Of a stretch of DNA of 64,000 bases, positions 52,863-59,733 are shown piece after piece. Within the stretch, counting starts at the first letter, position 1. The number at the start of each line of letters is the position of its first letter. The DNA is taken from the NCBI GenBank assembly GCA_000156115.1, contig DS995276.1:810017-874016 (forward strand), read 5' to 3'. Position numbers and translations under genes: made by a program. The stretch is from Rhodobacteraceae bacterium HTCC2083. Its GTDB lineage: Bacteria; Pseudomonadota; Alphaproteobacteria; Rhodobacterales; Rhodobacteraceae. Below the pieces are notes generated by a model. The model did not search any database, had not been told where the DNA came from, and saw nothing but the letters and a program-made list of their open reading frames with translations.

Positions 52863-53207
52863 ATGACCGAACAAACTCCCATTCAATTGCATCCTAGTCC
52901 TGCGCACATGCAGGTGGCTTTTCATCGCACCGAACTCGGACCAATCATGTCGCTATACGGGCAGATGGTCGCGGCTGGCGAATGGCGCGATTACGGGATT
53001 TCTTGCCTCAAGGACTTGGCCGTGTTTTCAGTATTCAAACGCACTGCTGAGAACCCACTTTATCGGATCGAAAAGCGCCCCAAACTTCGCAATAAACAAG
53101 GGCAGTATTCAGTCGTTGGGATGGACGGGCAGATCCTAAAACGCGGCAATGATTTGCGCGTAGTGTTGCGCGTGCTTGAACGCAAACTCATCCGTGCGGT
53201 TGACTAA
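52863..53207 (+). CDS. DUF2794-family protein
   Basis: Small protein of 114 residues from ATG 52863. VAFHRTELGPIMSLYGQMVA followed by GEWRDYGISCLKDLAVFSVF and LYRIEKRPKLRNKQGQYSVV fit DUF2794, an alphaproteobacterial family of unknown function. Its 3' end overlaps the converging NlpC/P60 gene by 4 bases. Confidence 0.85.
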   Translation: MTEQTPIQLHPSPAHMQVAFHRTELGPIMSLYGQMVAAGEWRDYGISCLKDLAVFSVFKRTAENPLYRIEKRPKLRNKQGQYSVVGMDGQILKRGNDLRVVLRVLERKLIRAVD

Positions 53208-54022
53208 AGACGCACATGACGCGTGACGTCGCCGTCGCCTTGGGCGGCAATACGCGCAAGCGCAACATCCAAACCCTCCAACACCACAGACATATGATGT
53301 GCATTCGCGTGGATCAGCGTTTTAGTGTCCGCCAACATCGCTACATGACCTTTCCAAAACAGTAGATCGCCCGCCTTTGGATTGCCGCTGGCTGTGCGCC
53401 CAAGACTTTGTTCTTGCAAATCACTATCGCCAGCGCAGTCTATCCCACAGACCATCAACACGACTTGAACCAGCCCCGAGCAATCAATCCCAAAGCGACT
53501 GTTGCCACCCCAAAGATAGGGCGTTCCCAGAAACAGACGCGCAATTTGCGCTGGGCTGCGTTCAACCTCGCCAATCTCTTTCAAATGTTGTCTTGGTATA
53601 TAGCCCTGCGACGTTTGCGCGAAACGTGCGTGCATTTCTATGACCGCGATCTTAGTACCAAAGCTTAGCGCGTCTTGGTCAGGGGACTTGAAGTTTTCTT
53701 CTTCATAAAGATGGCTGGAGGGCGCATTGATCCAATGGGTCGTGGTCTCTATGGCACTGATTTGCGCGCTCTGAAGGTATCCGCAATAGCCATCTTTGTC
53801 GGCTTGCACAAAAGACCAGCCTTCCCGATCTTCCAACACGTTCAGTGTTTCGCCCATCAGCAGCTGGCGATCCCGTGGGCCATCCGGCGCGCGTAAAAGA
53901 TCGGCAACTGGCACCGATACCTGACGCATCGCCCCTTTGACATAAGCGTCGGCAGGAACCGTACCGCGCAACATTTCAGCGGCGACACGACCATTTGCAG
54001 GGGTAAGGCGTGGATCGCTCAC
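53204..54022 (-). CDS. NlpC/P60-family cysteine peptidase (C40)
   Basis: Protein of 272 residues. SH3-like domains (about 25-150, GETLNVLEDREGWSFVQADK) precede an NlpC/P60 domain with the catalytic cysteine in FGIDCSGLVQVVL and the histidine in LFWKGHVAMLADT. It probably cuts a peptide bond in the murein stem. No signal peptide is visible. It starts at a GTG overlapping the stop of the M17 aminopeptidase gene (GTGA), so the two peptidases form one unit, likely for murein peptide recycling. Confidence 0.9.
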   Translation of the reverse strand: MSDPRLTPANGRVAAEMLRGTVPADAYVKGAMRQVSVPVADLLRAPDGPRDRQLLMGETLNVLEDREGWSFVQADKDGYCGYLQSAQISAIETTTHWINAPSSHLYEEENFKSPDQDALSFGTKIAVIEMHARFAQTSQGYIPRQHLKEIGEVERSPAQIARLFLGTPYLWGGNSRFGIDCSGLVQVVLMVCGIDCAGDSDLQEQSLGRTASGNPKAGDLLFWKGHVAMLADTKTLIHANAHHMSVVLEGLDVALARIAAQGDGDVTRHVRL

Positions 54023-55404
54023 AGGTCTAGCAATTTTGGCAGTGCCGCAAGTAGCGCCCGAGACGCTTGGCCTACGCCACCTTTGAGGCGTGCGGGCGCG
54101 CTGCTGGGTTGCCAGCCGTAAATATCAAAATGTATGTAGTTGGGTGTTTCAGTTGCAAAGCGACGCAAAAACAAGGCCGCCGTGATGGAGCCTGCAAATC
54201 CACCCTTAGGCGCATTGTCGAGGTCCGCGATGCCAGGTTCGATCATCTCCTCGTATGGATCCCAAAACGGCATGCGCCAGACCGGATCCTGCACCTGCTT
54301 TGCAGCAGTTTCCAAGGCCGCAGCGCTAGCGTCGCTTTGCGCATAATAGGGTGCAAGATCAGGGCCCACTGCGACGCGGGCCGCGCCCGTCAGTGTTGCC
54401 ATTGAAATAATCGCATTAGGGGTGTCTTCATCCGCCAAGGCCAGCGCATCCGCCAAAACAAGGCGGCCTTCCGCGTCTGTGTTGTTGATCTCAACCGTGA
54501 GCCCTTTGCGTGAGGTCAAGATATCCTGCGGGCGAAACGCATCCGCGCTGACGGAGTTTTCAACCGCGGGCACAAGCACGCGCAATTGCAAAGGCACATT
54601 CAGCGACATGATCATATGCGCAAGTCCAAGCACGGTGGCCGCGCCGCCCATATCCTTCTTCATCAACCCCATGGAACTGCCCGGCTTTAGGTTCAAACCG
54701 CCCGTATCAAAACACACACCTTTACCAACAAGCGTTAGCTTTGGCCCTGCCTTGCCCCAGCGCATATCAATGAGCCGAGGGGTACGTGACGCCGCGCGAC
54801 CAACCGCGTGTATCATCGGGAAGTTCTGTGCGAGGAGGTCATCGCCTTCGATGACAGTAACGTCAGCGGCATGTGATTTCGCTAAGCTTCGCACGGCTTC
54901 TTCTAAGTCAGGCGGCCCCATGTCAGAGGCGGGCGTGTTGATCAGATCTCGCGTCAGTGCTTCGCCTGCTGCAATCGCTTCCAACTCTGTTGCGTTTGCT
55001 GAATCAGGGCATATCAGATCGGTCTTTGCACCGCTTTGAGATTTGTAACGATCGAATGTGTAACCTGCGAGGAGCCAGCCCAAAAGCTCAACATTCAGGG
55101 CGTCTTCATCCAAATCTGTAACCAAGTGAAATGTCTGCTCAGAAAGCGACATACGTGCACGAGCTAAAGCAAAGCGGGAGCGTAATCTTGCAGTTTGCGT
55201 TCCATATCCGACAAGAGCGCCAGCACTCTCCCCCGCCTCAGATGGATAAGTCACAGATGCCCCAAAACCGGCAGTAAAGCCGCTTGCACGTACCCAATTT
55301 TGAACGTGGCCTGGCTGATCTGCCAACCACTTTTTCAAACCATCGCCAGAGACCAACGTTAAGGGCAAACTGGGCGCATCGGGCTTTGCAAATTTCAGGG
55401 ACAT
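54019..55404 (-). CDS. Leucyl aminopeptidase family protein (M17)
   Basis: Cytoplasmic dizinc aminopeptidase of 461 residues. GKGVCFDTGGLNLKPGSSMG with the following KKDMGG, and NTDAEGRLVLADALALA carry the metal and catalytic residues. It removes N-terminal amino acids from peptides. The N-terminal domain (about 1-150) is divergent, as usual. It is coupled to the NlpC/P60 gene downstream. Confidence 0.92.
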   Translation of the reverse strand: MSLKFAKPDAPSLPLTLVSGDGLKKWLADQPGHVQNWVRASGFTAGFGASVTYPSEAGESAGALVGYGTQTARLRSRFALARARMSLSEQTFHLVTDLDEDALNVELLGWLLAGYTFDRYKSQSGAKTDLICPDSANATELEAIAAGEALTRDLINTPASDMGPPDLEEAVRSLAKSHAADVTVIEGDDLLAQNFPMIHAVGRAASRTPRLIDMRWGKAGPKLTLVGKGVCFDTGGLNLKPGSSMGLMKKDMGGAATVLGLAHMIMSLNVPLQLRVLVPAVENSVSADAFRPQDILTSRKGLTVEINNTDAEGRLVLADALALADEDTPNAIISMATLTGAARVAVGPDLAPYYAQSDASAAALETAAKQVQDPVWRMPFWDPYEEMIEPGIADLDNAPKGGFAGSITAALFLRRFATETPNYIHFDIYGWQPSSAPARLKGGVGQASRALLAALPKLLDL

Positions 55405-55508
55405 GGGTGCATTCTCATGATGTTTTCGACTGCTGCCAAGCTATCTGCTTCGCCCTGCCCTGCAAGCACCGAATTCAATGCGCGCCAAATCTTGCCAATC
55501 CTTGCGCC

Positions 55509-55889
55509 TTAAATCGGAATATCCTGCATGTCCCAGATAGCTGTCAAAGACTGATCAGAGTTGCGCAAAAGTCGCGAGAATGTCGCGCCTAGCGCCACCC
55601 AGTCATTCATGTCGATGCAGGTTATAACATCGTTTGAGACCCGCGAGAGCGTGTTCAACCCGACCTGATCCGCAATCGTAATCAAGGATCGAATGGTCCG
55701 TCGCAATTCTAGTGTCGCGCCTGCCGCATATAGCTTTTTGCTTTGCTTGACGCGGATCGCCATTTCTTCCATTGCGCGGCAGAGCACATTGTCCGCCTCA
55801 TCCTCACCCAGCTTTGTATAAAGCAGTTCAAGTTGTTCTGCATTTAAGCGCACGCTTTCGCGCGGCAGCATTGGTGTTATCTGTTCCAT
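55509..55889 (-). CDS. Hypothetical helical protein
   Basis: No named domain recognised. The protein has 126 residues, acidic at the N-terminus, mostly helical: LNAEQLELLYTKLGEDEADN, MEEMAIRVKQSKKLYAAG, and ADQVGLNTLSRVSNDVITCI. It looks like a conserved Rhodobacteraceae protein, which I cannot confirm. It is divergent from the carbonic anhydrase gene. Confidence 0.7.
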   Translation of the reverse strand: MEQITPMLPRESVRLNAEQLELLYTKLGEDEADNVLCRAMEEMAIRVKQSKKLYAAGATLELRRTIRSLITIADQVGLNTLSRVSNDVITCIDMNDWVALGATFSRLLRNSDQSLTAIWDMQDIPI

Positions 55890-56033
55890 TGGCTCACCCC
55901 GAATTCGCCCCCACGGCCAAACCTCTATGCGACAACGTTCTTCCCAAAAGGTTTAGACAGCGCGCTCTTTTCTCTCGAAATTCTTTCAAATTCAGCGTAT
56001 CGCGGATGAAACGTGAATGAAGGGGCGTTACCC

Positions 56034-56684
56034 ATGAGCTATGCTAAACCGCTACCCAGTTACCTTGTCCAACGCTATCACGGCTGGAAAGCGACGACCC
56101 ACTCGGAAAATCGTGCCTGGTACAAGCGACTTGCGAATGAAGGCCAGCGCCCGCGTGCAATGGTGATTTCATGCTGCGATAGTCGTGTTCATGTGACGTC
56201 AATTTTTGGCGCAGACCAAGGTGAATTTTTCATCCACCGTAATATTGCCAATCTCGTACCCGCCTACGCACCCGACGGTGATCATCATGGCACGTCCGCA
56301 GCTATTGAATATGCGGTTACTGCGTTGAAAGTGGCACATATTATCGTACTTGGGCATTCCAACTGCGGTGGCATTCAAGGCTGTTTAGACATGTGTACTG
56401 GGAATGCGCCCGAGCTTGAAAAATCGAGTAGTTTCGTTGGCCGGTGGATGGATATTTTGCGACCTGGTTACGAGCGTGTGAGCCAAGAAAACGACGCAGC
56501 TTCATTGCCGACTGCGTTGGAAAAAGAAGCCGTTGTCGTGTCACTAGAAAACCTGATGTCCTTTCCTTTCATCGAGGAGGCCGTCACATCTGGCGAACTT
56601 ACCCTTCATGGGCTTTGGACTGAGATTGGGGAAGGTACTTTAGAATGTCTTGATTCAAATACGCGAGAATTTTCACCGCTTTAA
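56034..56684 (+). CDS. Beta-class carbonic anhydrase
   Basis: Protein of 216 residues from ATG 56034; an upstream GTG at 56013 overlaps its AAGGGG ribosome site. Zinc ligands C48 (in ISCCDSRV, with the D-R dyad), H110 and C113 (in LGHSNCGG) are intact. It interconverts CO2 and bicarbonate in the cytoplasm. It is followed 79 bases later by the bicarbonate transporter SbtA and then its PII-like partner, so the three form a bicarbonate module. Confidence 0.92.
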   Translation: MSYAKPLPSYLVQRYHGWKATTHSENRAWYKRLANEGQRPRAMVISCCDSRVHVTSIFGADQGEFFIHRNIANLVPAYAPDGDHHGTSAAIEYAVTALKVAHIIVLGHSNCGGIQGCLDMCTGNAPELEKSSSFVGRWMDILRPGYERVSQENDAASLPTALEKEAVVVSLENLMSFPFIEEAVTSGELTLHGLWTEIGEGTLECLDSNTREFSPL

Positions 56685-56700
56685 TCTTTCATTCTCTTTT

Positions 56701-56743
56701 ACAAGTACCATTTAGCTAAAAATCACCTGAAAAACGTACTTGT
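56701..56743 (+). promoter_or_regulatory. Inverted repeat between carbonic anhydrase and sbtA
   Basis: ACAAGTAC (56701-56708) matches GTACTTGT (56736-56743) exactly, around 27 bases. It lies in the short gap before sbtA and ends about 6 bases before the sbtA ribosome site. It may be an mRNA fold or a regulator site; it may also be chance. Confidence 0.4.
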
Positions 56744-56763
56744 GCGCATTAGGAGTTCTGATC

Positions 56764-57738
56764 ATGGACGTCTTTTCGTTGGCGGCTGAAACACTAGTAA
56801 CGCCCATCGTTCTTTCCTTTGTTCTTGGCTTGTTTGCAGCACTTGTACGATCTGATCTTAGCATTCCCGAGGCCGTTGCCAAAGGCATGTCACTATATCT
56901 CTTGTTCGCAATAGGTTTCAAAGGTGGAGTCAGCCTTGCAGATCATGGAAACGAGCTGACCCTTGGGTTGACCTTACTGGCAGGCGTCCTGCTGTCTGCG
57001 ATAATCCCCTTTGTGGCCTACGCGGTCTTACGACTTATGAGCGGTCTTAACGCGCTGGATGCTGCGGCTGTTGCGGGGCACTACGGATCGATCTCGATCG
57101 TTACTTTCGTCGCCTCTACCTCCGTGCTCGAAAGCCAAGGTATTATGTATGATGGTTACATGGTTGCCGTTGCCGCCGCGATGGAAGCACCCGCGATCCT
57201 ATCCGCGCTCTGGCTTGTCACGCGGACCAAGGGCGGCGGCACGATGGAACCGGGTCTGTGGCGTGAAATCATGCTTAACGGGTCTATCGTTCTGTTGATC
57301 GGTGCGTTTTTGATCGGAATGATCACCGGCGAAGACGGCCTTAAAGAGATCGCCCCCCTCGTGATTGCGCCATTCAAAGGTGTGCTTTGCCTCTTCCTTC
57401 TCGATATGGGCATTATCGCCGGACGGGGCCTGCGCAAAGGGCGCGGCGTACTAGATGCGGGCGCGATCGCCTTTGGTATCGTAATGCCGATGATTGGTGC
57501 CATATTTGGTCTTGGCGCAGCTGTGCTACTTGGGATTCCCCTAGGCAGTGCACTATTGTTGATGGTACTAAGTGCATCCGCCTCCTACATCGCGGTGCCC
57601 GCTGCAATGCGTGTCGCTCTGCCTGAGGCAAACCAGTCAGTTTATCTCACGCTATCTCTTGGCGTGACCTTCCCTTTCAACCTTGTCATTGGCATTCCGC
57701 TTTATCTTGCGCTTGCCACTGTCGCTATCGGAGGCTGA
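56764..57738 (+). CDS. sbtA: Sodium-dependent bicarbonate transporter SbtA-like
   Basis: Membrane protein of 324 residues from ATG 56764 (AGGAG 8 bases upstream) with about ten helices in two inverted halves. LSFVLGLFAALVRSDLSIPE, LLFAIGFKGGVSLADHG, AGHYGSISIVTFVAS and SASASYIAVPAAMRVALPEA are the SbtA (formerly DUF897) pattern. It takes up bicarbonate with sodium. Cyanobacterial SbtA is controlled by SbtB, whose homologue follows 4 bases after the stop. Confidence 0.9.
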   Translation: MDVFSLAAETLVTPIVLSFVLGLFAALVRSDLSIPEAVAKGMSLYLLFAIGFKGGVSLADHGNELTLGLTLLAGVLLSAIIPFVAYAVLRLMSGLNALDAAAVAGHYGSISIVTFVASTSVLESQGIMYDGYMVAVAAAMEAPAILSALWLVTRTKGGGTMEPGLWREIMLNGSIVLLIGAFLIGMITGEDGLKEIAPLVIAPFKGVLCLFLLDMGIIAGRGLRKGRGVLDAGAIAFGIVMPMIGAIFGLGAAVLLGIPLGSALLLMVLSASASYIAVPAAMRVALPEANQSVYLTLSLGVTFPFNLVIGIPLYLALATVAIGG

Positions 57739-57742
57739 TGCG

Positions 57743-58054
57743 ATGCAAACTCACAAAGCAAAACGCGTTGATATTACGATTGAAAAAATCATGCTCTCGC
57801 GCCTGACAGATGCGATAGAAAAAGCAGATGTGTCTGGCTATTCCATTCTACCTGTCTTTGGCGGATCTGGTCGCTCTGGCGCTTGGACACGCGAAGACAA
57901 CATCGGGCGCGGCGATGGCATGGTGCAGGTTGTCTGCATCATCAAGCCTGGGCGCTTGGATGCGTTACTCGACTCAGCGTTTGAAGTAGTTGATCGCCAT
58001 ATCGGCGTCGTGACGATCACCGACTGCGAAGTGTTACGGGCAGAGCGTTTCTAG
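57743..58054 (+). CDS. PII-like protein, SbtB/CPII type
   Basis: Small protein of 103 residues from ATG 57743 (GGAGG 8 bases upstream). The fold matches PII: KRVDITIEKIMLSRLTDAIE, the T-loop region GGSGRSGAWTREDNIGRGDG, MVQVVCIIKPGRLDALLDSA, and HIGVVTITDCEVLRAERF. The C-terminal cysteine-containing loop of cyanobacterial SbtB is absent. It probably senses adenine nucleotides and gates SbtA. This gene order identifies it as the transporter's regulator and not GlnB/GlnK. Confidence 0.88.
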   Translation: MQTHKAKRVDITIEKIMLSRLTDAIEKADVSGYSILPVFGGSGRSGAWTREDNIGRGDGMVQVVCIIKPGRLDALLDSAFEVVDRHIGVVTITDCEVLRAERF

Positions 58055-58566
58055 GGCGCTGCGATCACAGAACGTTTCAGTTCCAACAAACGAATCCGCT
58101 GCGATAGTGTTCTGCTTTCTTGCAACAAAAACGCTCGCGCTTCGCTGCTGTCCTCAGCCACAACACGGCGGTCAATTTCATCGATCCGGTATTGCACCTG
58201 TTCTATGTCATCTGTGAGTTCGTGAAACTCCAATCCATTTTTGTTAGCAGCTTGTAGCGCACTCATTTGCGGAGCAGGGCAGACAGGGCGAAGCTTGTTG
58301 CCTTTCTTACCCTCAGAAAAGGCTTCTGCAGGGACACAATATGCTGGCAGCCCTCTTTGGCGTCCTTTTTCCTAAAGACTTTGAACTGGACTTACTCCCG
58401 TTTTCGAACAGGCCTTCGCATGCTTTTGCAAGTAGTCACTAGTGCGCCCATTGGTACCGTCACGAAACCCAATTTCTTCCCAGTTACCGTTCAAACACTC
58501 TTCTTTGCCGATGGTTGCACAGGCTGAAAGGCTTAGAAGAAGACTTATGATTAATGGGGCGCGCAT
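58051..58566 (-). pseudogene. DUF2799 lipoprotein, split by one stop
   Basis: From ATG 58566 the frame gives a lipoprotein signal (MRAPLIISLLLSLSACAT, lipobox LSAC) and ECLNGNWEEIGFRDGTNGRT. It meets TAG at 58372-58374 and continues in frame with EKGRQRGLPAYCVPAEAFSE, RPVCPAPQMSALQAANKNG and a C-terminal coiled coil. That order is the DUF2799 layout. It looks like two small genes but is one gene with a nonsense codon. Its 3' end overlaps the SbtB gene by 4 bases. Confidence 0.85.
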
Positions 58567-58659
58567 GGGTTGTCCTTGCATGGGTGAATACGCGCTTAAC
58601 CAAAACCACTTTGCAGTTGTTATGCAATATCACCAGATTTGAAACAGCTTCGGTCACGC

Positions 58660-58686
58660 AAAAACCCCGCCTTGAAAAGACGGGGT
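58660..58686 (-). terminator. Intrinsic terminator after asd
   Basis: On the minus strand ACCCCG pairs with CGGGGT with further CTT/AAG pairing in the loop, followed by TTTTT (58660-58664). It lies about 25 bases beyond the asd stop. Confidence 0.85.
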
Positions 58687-58710
58687 CCTCAGGAATTCTT
58701 TTAAGAGCGT

Positions 58711-59733
58711 TTAACCCTTCTTCAACACACGATTACCAAGCGTTTCCGCAATTTGTACCGCGTTCAAGGCAGCCCCTTTGCGAAGATTGTCAGACACGCA
58801 CCACAAGTTCAAACCATTGTCGATTGTGCTGTCTTGACGAATGCGCGAGATAAACGTCGCATAGTCGCCAACGCATTCAACAGGTGTCACGTAACCACCG
58901 TCTTCACGTTTGTCGATCACCATCACACCAGGCGCTTCACGCAGAATATCGCGGGCTTCATCTTCATCGAGGAAATCCTCGAACTCGATGTTCACAGCCT
59001 CGGAATGGCCAACGAACACAGGGACGCGCACACAGGTCGCTGTGACTTTGATGGAAGTGTCGACGATCTTCTTCGTCTCCGCGACCATCTTCCATTCTTC
59101 CTTGGTTTCACCGCTGTCCATGAACACGTCGATATGCGGGATCACATTAAACGCAATCTGCTTGGTGAAGGTTTTTGGCGGCTTATCGTCTGTCGGGTTG
59201 TAGATCGACTTAGTTTGATCCCAAAGCTCGTCCGCGCCAGATTTACCAGCGCCGGAAACCGACTGATAAGTGCTAACAACAACGCGCTTGATGCGCGCGC
59301 GGTCGTGCAAAGGCTTCAAGGCTACAACCATTTGCGCGGTCGAGCAGTTGGGATTCGCAATGATATTCTTCTTTGCATAGTCGTGAATCGCCTCTGGATT
59401 CACCTCGGGAACGATTAAAGGAACATCAGGATCATAGCGATAAAGCGAGGAATTATCGATCACAACGCAGCCCGCTTTCGCAGCGACAGGCGCGTATTGC
59501 TTGGTCGCTTCGGAACCAACCGCAAACAGCGCCATATCCCATCCCGTGAAATCAAACGTGTCTAAGTCTTTCGTCTTCAACGTTTTTTCACCAAAGCTGA
59601 CTTCCGTACCTATGGATTTTCGGCTTGCCAAAACGGCCAACTCATCCACTGGGAACTGACGCTCATCCAGGATGTTCAACATTTCACGGCCCACATTACC
59701 GGTGGCGCCAACGACGACGACTTTATACCCCAT
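58711..59733 (-). CDS. asd: Aspartate-semialdehyde dehydrogenase
   Basis: Protein of 340 residues. It reduces aspartyl phosphate to aspartate semialdehyde, the entry to lysine, threonine and methionine. VVVGATGNVGREMLNIL is the NADP-binding start, the catalytic cysteine is in NPNCSTAQMVVALKPL, and VPVFVGHSEAVNIEFE carries the active-site histidine. It works with dapD and dapE elsewhere in the window. It is a single gene ending at a terminator. Confidence 0.96.
   Translation of the reverse strand: MGYKVVVVGATGNVGREMLNILDERQFPVDELAVLASRKSIGTEVSFGEKTLKTKDLDTFDFTGWDMALFAVGSEATKQYAPVAAKAGCVVIDNSSLYRYDPDVPLIVPEVNPEAIHDYAKKNIIANPNCSTAQMVVALKPLHDRARIKRVVVSTYQSVSGAGKSGADELWDQTKSIYNPTDDKPPKTFTKQIAFNVIPHIDVFMDSGETKEEWKMVAETKKIVDTSIKVTATCVRVPVFVGHSEAVNIEFEDFLDEDEARDILREAPGVMVIDKREDGGYVTPVECVGDYATFISRIRQDSTIDNGLNLWCVSDNLRKGAALNAVQIAETLGNRVLKKG

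Follow-up and report, generated by a model that had tools for sequence, protein, structure and literature searches.

Here we show that three adjoining genes in a 64,000-nucleotide stretch of the genome of Rhodobacteraceae bacterium HTCC2083 (contig DS995276.1, positions 810,017 to 874,016; the whole stretch is hereafter called the window) form a compact operon, and that part of this operon accompanies the photosynthetic reaction-centre genes pufL and pufM (pufLM) across the family, an association that persists when kinship is controlled on a tree. The three genes encode a beta-carbonic anhydrase (CA), an SbtA-like transporter and a CPII-like PII protein. We propose, with a probability of roughly 0.55, that they constitute an inorganic-carbon supply, Na+-driven and both energy- and bicarbonate-sensing, of anoxygenic photoheterotrophs that lack a Calvin cycle. 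Research on marine carbon cycling has yet to settle by which routes CO2 enters aerobic anoxygenic phototrophs that do not use RuBisCO, and how light adds to this. An operon joining carbon uptake, interconversion and energy sensing would offer a three-gene handle on the question.

SbtA-family proteins of relatives fall into two main classes (188 class a, 22 class b, and five between); class b carries the cyanobacterial signature, and the window transporter belongs to class a. Their distribution was surveyed in 295 genera of the bacterial family, each represented by a single genome; 92 genera carried SbtA above the cut-off, 122 pufLM (puf+) and 49 RuBisCO. RuBisCO was scored above 380 bits, matches of 252 bits and below being taken as presumably RuBisCO-like. 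Four genera with SbtA fragments and one with a partial 314-bit match (G030) were counted without class a, below-cut-off matches in two others were not counted as SbtA, and five class b genera, G030 among them, were assigned from score alone. Any SbtA was present in 67/122 puf+ versus 25/173 puf- genera (odds ratio (OR) 7.2, p 2e-13), the SbtA-like gene paired with a PII gene in 51/122 versus 11/173 (OR 10.6, p 1.8e-13), and the full trio in 36/122 versus 8/173. Canonical class b SbtA occurred in 27 of the 295 genera, 26 of them puf+ and one puf-. SbtA-like genes without PII (17 genera), which served as an internal control, showed no association with pufLM (5 puf+, 12 puf-; OR 0.57, p 0.45), and the OR of RuBisCO with pufLM was 0.45. 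Nor was there a positive link between SbtA and RuBisCO among these genera (8/49 RuBisCO+ versus 84/246 RuBisCO-, OR 0.38); as this comparison is not significant on the tree (likelihood ratio (LR) 5.2, p 0.27), we limit the claim to the lack of a positive link.

Kinship was addressed with an rpoB tree drawn from the 148 even-numbered genera of the survey and rooted at its midpoint; 125 with full or nearly full rpoB were retained, leaving out six with a partial match and the remainder with none. The correlation between the pair and pufLM on this tree (phi 0.474) was matched by 0/5000 traits simulated under the pair's own gain and loss rates. In 32 independent puf+/puf- contrasts, the module was present on the puf+ side only in 15, on the puf- side only in 2, on both in 1 and on neither in 14 (sign test p 0.0012), and a Pagel test of any SbtA against pufLM gave an LR of 25.1 (p 4.8e-5). 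Simulation and contrasts together remove shared ancestry as the sole cause of the link. The first-pass annotation of the window had pointed to a search for the trio across the family, and that search, as reported here, finds the module tracking pufLM. Outside the family, in a 289-genome draw of Alphaproteobacteria from which the 4 same-family genomes among the matches listed were removed, SbtA of any class, considered without its partners, was present in 14/18 puf+ versus 42/267 puf- genomes (OR 18.8, p 4.9e-8; kinship ignored, and several genomes may share a genus). On eight long contigs, chosen by hand among those that carry both genes, sbtA and puf tend to lie close together (combined p 0.006); several other genomes with the two genes on one contig were left out, and we do not rely on this biased set.

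All three genes lie on the forward strand. The CA gene occupies 56034..56684 (ATG at 56034, stop at 56684; 216 amino acids; PF00484, E 1.8e-45), the SbtA-like (class a) transporter gene 56764..57738 (324 amino acids; PF05982, 374 bits, E 7.5e-112), and the CPII-like gene 57743..58054 (103 amino acids; PF00543, E 4.1e-11). The gaps between them measure 79 and 4 bases, respectively, and each gene is preceded by a purine-rich ribosome site (GAAGGGG, TTAGGAG and CGGAGG, in gene order). Both neighbouring open reading frames (126 amino acids at 55509-55889 and 71 amino acids at 58051-58266) lie on the minus strand, so that the transcription unit most simply comprises the trio. Neighbourhoods were counted in the best 80 named loci of 577 transporter relatives, a sample biased toward close relatives; in this and the other locus sets, loci close to contig ends may miss a neighbour. 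A PII-like gene lies downstream of the transporter in 78/80, and a CA gene adjoins the pair in 41/80 (upstream in 32, downstream in 9, on neither side in 39). The trio of the first-pass annotation is thus confirmed, and since PII and CA genes recur in this way beside the sbtA genes of relatives, it is not a chance array. Upstream CAs are on average 68% identical to the window CA and downstream CAs 40%, the downstream arrangement being found mainly in Roseibium, Labrenzia and Thalassospira.

The window CA carries the residue set of a beta-carbonic anhydrase (C47, D49, R51, H108 and C111), whose roles (zinc ligands C, H and C, and an Asp-Arg pair) we take to be those of the plant enzyme. These residues are invariant in 76/76 upstream-CA and 10/10 downstream-CA relatives, a set reaching beyond the 80 named loci. 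Inspection by eye made no signal peptide evident in the window CA. The transporter combines an Sbt_1 domain with a predicted SbtA fold: its AlphaFold2 model (mean predicted local distance difference test (pLDDT) score 89.5) matches Synechocystis SbtA best (8zor_A; Z 41.4, root-mean-square deviation (rmsd) 2.3, 320 residues aligned), with Z 38.4, rmsd 2.2 and 313 residues aligned for 7cye_A, the next fold being LYCHOS (Z 22.1). Three class b SbtAs from other genera of the family, canonical and cyanobacterial in type, share 28-29% identity with the window transporter.

For the PII-like protein, a profile search returned CPII first (5d4n, E 5.1e-17) and Cyanobium SbtB next (E 2.6e-12), with classical PII reaching 0.0035 at best. 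Its AlphaFold2 model (pLDDT 85.9, below 50 at residues 52-55 only) again placed CPII at the top of a fold search (5d4o_A, E 1.4e-9, template modelling score 0.89, rmsd 1.7, 24% identity). The protein aligns with CPII without gaps over the T-loop (GGSGRSG), of which G41, G43 and G46 are invariant in 33/33 aligned proteins; two of 34 PII picks and one of 32 SbtA picks had been left out of the two alignments (A1 and A2). A C-terminal CGPxGC motif is absent from the window protein, which ends at F103 (...LRAERF); this hairpin is conserved in some SbtB homologues only (PMC8352866). In both sequence and predicted fold, the protein is thus closer to CPII than to SbtB.

The genome of the host (4,018,415 bases, rated 100% complete) contains two matches to the reaction-centre family PF00124, pufL and pufM, at positions 966881-968549 of its contig C5, and a single SbtA-family match, at position 866819 of the same contig, about 100 kb away. 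A search of this genome for the RuBisCO large subunit (PF00016) gave no match, while 5 of 14 control genomes were positive. With pufLM present and RuBisCO absent, the host is a light-using heterotroph, probably aerobic, judging from its named relatives. The remark in the first-pass annotation that no RuBisCO was in view therefore extends to the whole genome by this search, which covered RuBisCO and not carboxysome shell genes. As far as RuBisCO goes, the locus elsewhere in the genome that, by that annotation, would have made the module ordinary is absent. Its heterotrophic cell proves not to be a plain heterotroph, given pufL and pufM 100 kb away and a module that tracks them.

In the mechanism that we propose, the SbtA-like symporter would import an anion, most likely HCO3-, together with Na+, and a CPII-like PII trimer would dock on the transporter via its T-loop and gate it in response to bicarbonate and the adenylate state of the cell. 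The ligands of the CPII structures 5d4o and 5d4p are ADP, AMP and bicarbonate, as stated in their PDB titles, and by analogy the window protein may sense ADP/AMP and bicarbonate as well. In the SbtA-SbtB complex, the T-loop of SbtB enters the transporter cleft (PMC8352866), and it is from this analogy that we infer gating in the window system. The cytosolic beta-CA would equilibrate imported HCO3- with CO2, and carboxylases using HCO3- (of phosphoenolpyruvate, pyruvate, and acetyl/propionyl-CoA) as well as those using CO2 (malic enzyme, phosphoenolpyruvate carboxykinase, crotonyl-CoA carboxylase) could be fed. A cytosolic CA encoded next to an importer would argue for a supply of both CO2 and HCO3- and not for an HCO3- pool of the carboxysome kind; such an enzyme would short-circuit a carboxysome-type CO2-concentrating mechanism (CCM), yet suits a supply outside the Calvin cycle. 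According to passages of PMC2749216, Roseobacter denitrificans, which has no Calvin cycle, fixes CO2 anaplerotically, chiefly by way of malic enzyme, and obtains 10-15% of its protein carbon in this manner, which makes anaplerotic CO2 fixation a plausible client for the module; the earlier suggestion that it feeds anaplerotic carboxylases is retained in this conditional form. With odds slightly short of even, we further propose that CPII-gated import of inorganic carbon (or a related anion), with a substrate site of its own and no Calvin cycle, is a dedicated system proper to anoxygenic photoheterotrophy, retained along with bacteriochlorophyll photosynthesis and mostly missing from lineages that do not photosynthesize, and that the canonical class b SbtA of other genera would be a second, parallel system with a still stronger phototroph bias.

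Several points weigh against the inorganic-carbon proposal, among them the substrate site. The proposed side-chain ligands of HCO3- in Synechocystis SbtA are S114, Y140, S324 and S327 (from cryo-electron microscopy, docking and mutants), and alanine at any of the four lowers transport to about 10-40% (PMC8352866). The window transporter retains S111 and S274 (equivalent to S114 and S324) and has A137 in place of Y140 and A277 in place of S327, and therefore lacks the four-ligand set of canonical SbtA. Across class a and the intermediates, S114 is kept in 193/193 and S324 in 192/193, while Y140 is replaced by A, V, L or M in 191/193 (one gap, one row not printed), S327 by A in 187/193 and D325 by Y in 192/193; all four ligands are present in 22/22 class b proteins of relatives. 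Given this altered site and the low identity to canonical SbtA, bicarbonate transport is not established; bicarbonate is the likely, though unproven, substrate. We consider SbtA-like, class a, the fitting name, and 'SbtA' labels in Proteobacteria should be read with the warning that they include a subfamily whose substrate is deduced. The SbtA bicarbonate module with a PII-like partner described in the first-pass annotation consequently stands as to SbtA family, SbtA fold and PII-type gene; two of the four proposed ligands are lost, the substrate is conjectural, and CPII outranks SbtB in alignment, profile and fold comparisons.

BicA and BCT1 are bicarbonate transporters of cyanobacteria, and Labrenzia alexandrii DFL-11 is a bacteriochlorophyll-bearing strain. 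Passages of PMC4275256 report no uptake of HCO3- by the 'Labrenzia SbtA-like' protein of this strain in an E. coli assay, which also failed to show activity of BicA and BCT1, so that the negative result carries little weight. The protein tested probably belongs to class a, since the five Labrenzia/Roseibium loci in our set all do (66-69% identical to the window transporter). Cyanobacterial SbtA-like proteins, which may be of another class, are suggested in a passage of PMC11890772 not to replace SbtA, and, in a passage of PMC2749216, added CO2 did not enhance growth of R. denitrificans in the medium tested. In the upstream regions of 74 trio loci, the PpsR-type site TGTN12ACA occurred 5 times, versus 3.4 expected, which is no excess. 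The pair is absent from 71/122 puf+ genera and from both sides of 14/32 contrasts, and is therefore not required for phototrophy, and its association with pufLM carries no control for habitat. A link to rhodopsin was expected and was not found among puf- Alphaproteobacteria, where rhodopsin occurred in 4/42 genomes with SbtA and 4/38 without (the latter being the first such genomes, unmatched for genome size), and an extension of the proposal to rhodopsin phototrophs is rejected on these counts. Within the family, rhodopsin occurs in 6/295 genera, three of which carry SbtA.

The substrate site also lends support to the alternative that the symporter carries another small anion (such as a short carboxylate), the CPII-like protein reporting on bicarbonate or energy and the CA handling metabolic CO2 arising from the substrate. 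The ligand changes run throughout class a while class b keeps all four, and the Labrenzia protein, probably of class a, was negative for HCO3- uptake; set against this are the failure of the same assay with BicA and BCT1 and the nature of the two partners, CA and CPII-like, both of which indicate inorganic carbon. We regard this alternative as unlikely, though it is the most credible of those weighed here. A little more doubtful is the view that these are ordinary accessory genes whose link to pufLM stems from life in the same sunlit water or from common descent, the two being unconnected in function. The trio resides in an old chromosomal slot and has thus been mostly inherited and lost, and the pair is found in just 51/122 puf+ genera, as this view would have it; the tree simulation and the 15 versus 2 contrasts oppose it as far as ancestry is concerned, habitat lying outside these tests, and neither PII-less SbtA-like genes nor RuBisCO track pufLM. 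Since this view is compatible with inorganic-carbon transport, the odds of the readings overlap.

Import of HCO3- together with CA could instead buffer the cytosol during light-driven proton pumping in alkaline sea water, as part of pH and Na+ homeostasis unlinked to carbon assimilation. The fold leads one to expect Na+ coupling, a CA is present, and one PII-less SbtA-like gene (locus L276) comes after an NhaA-type Na+/H+ antiporter gene; this sole antiporter neighbour, however, stands in a puf- genome and belongs to the PII-less kind that has no pufLM link, and a regulator of the PII type points to a need set by metabolism. We hold this role to be improbable. Least credible, to the point of being nearly discounted, is a remnant of a CCM left by a lost Calvin cycle: SbtA, PII and CA are parts of the CCM type, yet SbtA is rarer in genera with RuBisCO (8/49 versus 84/246, not significant on the tree), and the conserved CA catalytic residues and T-loop give the parts a maintained appearance. 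A present role in a CCM or in the Calvin cycle was likewise considered and rejected, as the host has no RuBisCO and SbtA has no positive link with RuBisCO among genera.

Among known systems, the cyanobacterial SbtA-SbtB pair (Synechocystis slr1512-slr1513; PDB 7cye, 7cyf, 7egl) also places transporter and PII-like genes in one operon, and its transporter shares with that of the window the predicted fold and the residues S114 and S324. It differs in that the window transporter is 22-24% identical to it in structural alignments and has lost Y140 and S327, in that the window host has no RuBisCO to serve, and in that the window operon includes a CA gene and a CPII-like PII without CGPxGC. CPII of Thiomonas intermedia (PDB 5d4n, 5d4o, 5d4p), the best match of the window PII in sequence and fold, is reportedly called carboxysome-associated in the title of the 2016 paper by Wheatley. 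The window protein departs from it in its low identity (24%) and in a host without RuBisCO (shell genes were not part of the search). SbtA-like proteins are known in heterotrophs, as a passage of PMC10117731 states, citing von Rozycki 2004. Those treated in passages of PMC10117731, PMC11890772 and PMC4275256 are, as here, distant SbtA homologues, partly in bacteria without a CCM, and these passages describe neither a CA-SbtA-CPII operon nor a link to pufLM. The closest precedent in role is an Sbt gene of 'Candidatus Phycosocius', an aerobic anoxygenic phototroph without RuBisCO in which Sbt has been proposed to feed anaplerosis; the passage concerned (PMC10008586) treats a single lineage, and contains no PII/CA operon and no survey. 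In proteorhodopsin-bearing Flavobacteriia, sbtA is biased toward light-using heterotrophs, according to a passage of PMC5932025, in another phylum and with another type of phototrophy. A search of the open-licence literature, with subscription literature largely outside it, did not turn up any account that ties a CA-SbtA-CPII operon to pufLM.

The slot that holds the trio spans window positions 53204-59733. Beyond the adjoining minus-strand frames, one side carries genes for an M17 aminopeptidase (LAP) and for an NlpC/P60 protein. The other carries a gene for a semialdehyde dehydrogenase, which we read as aspartate-semialdehyde dehydrogenase (asd). Flanking the 32 upstream-CA named loci, LAP is found at 28, NlpC at 28 and asd at 25, and this old position between LAP/NlpC and asd favours inheritance with loss over recent transfer. 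The divergent intergenic region at 55890..56033, read on the forward strand, is the presumed location of the operon promoter. A sigma-70-like site was not found in it, and the promoter and terminator scan did not rise above shuffles. The spacer between the CA and sbtA genes (56685..56763, to which no strand is assigned) contains the sbtA ribosome site and an 8-bp inverted repeat, ACAAGTAC at 56701-56708 and GTACTTGT at 56736-56743, which is not conserved: any 8-bp repeat was present in 5/76 trio loci, the window's own included.

Some small genomes (1.2-2.0 Mb) in the class-wide draw carry an SbtA-like gene with no PII neighbour detected (six loci; at one of these, L306, the contig stops right after the SbtA-like gene, and a PII neighbour may be missed). 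In puf- genomes of the family, 12 of 23 class a loci have no PII neighbour; the genes beside three of these 12 include those for a LysR regulator, for an acyltransferase, for a PfkB kinase and for an NhaA-type antiporter. At the 22 class b loci, a PII-like gene is near two, and a LysR-type regulator gene adjoins three of the four checked.

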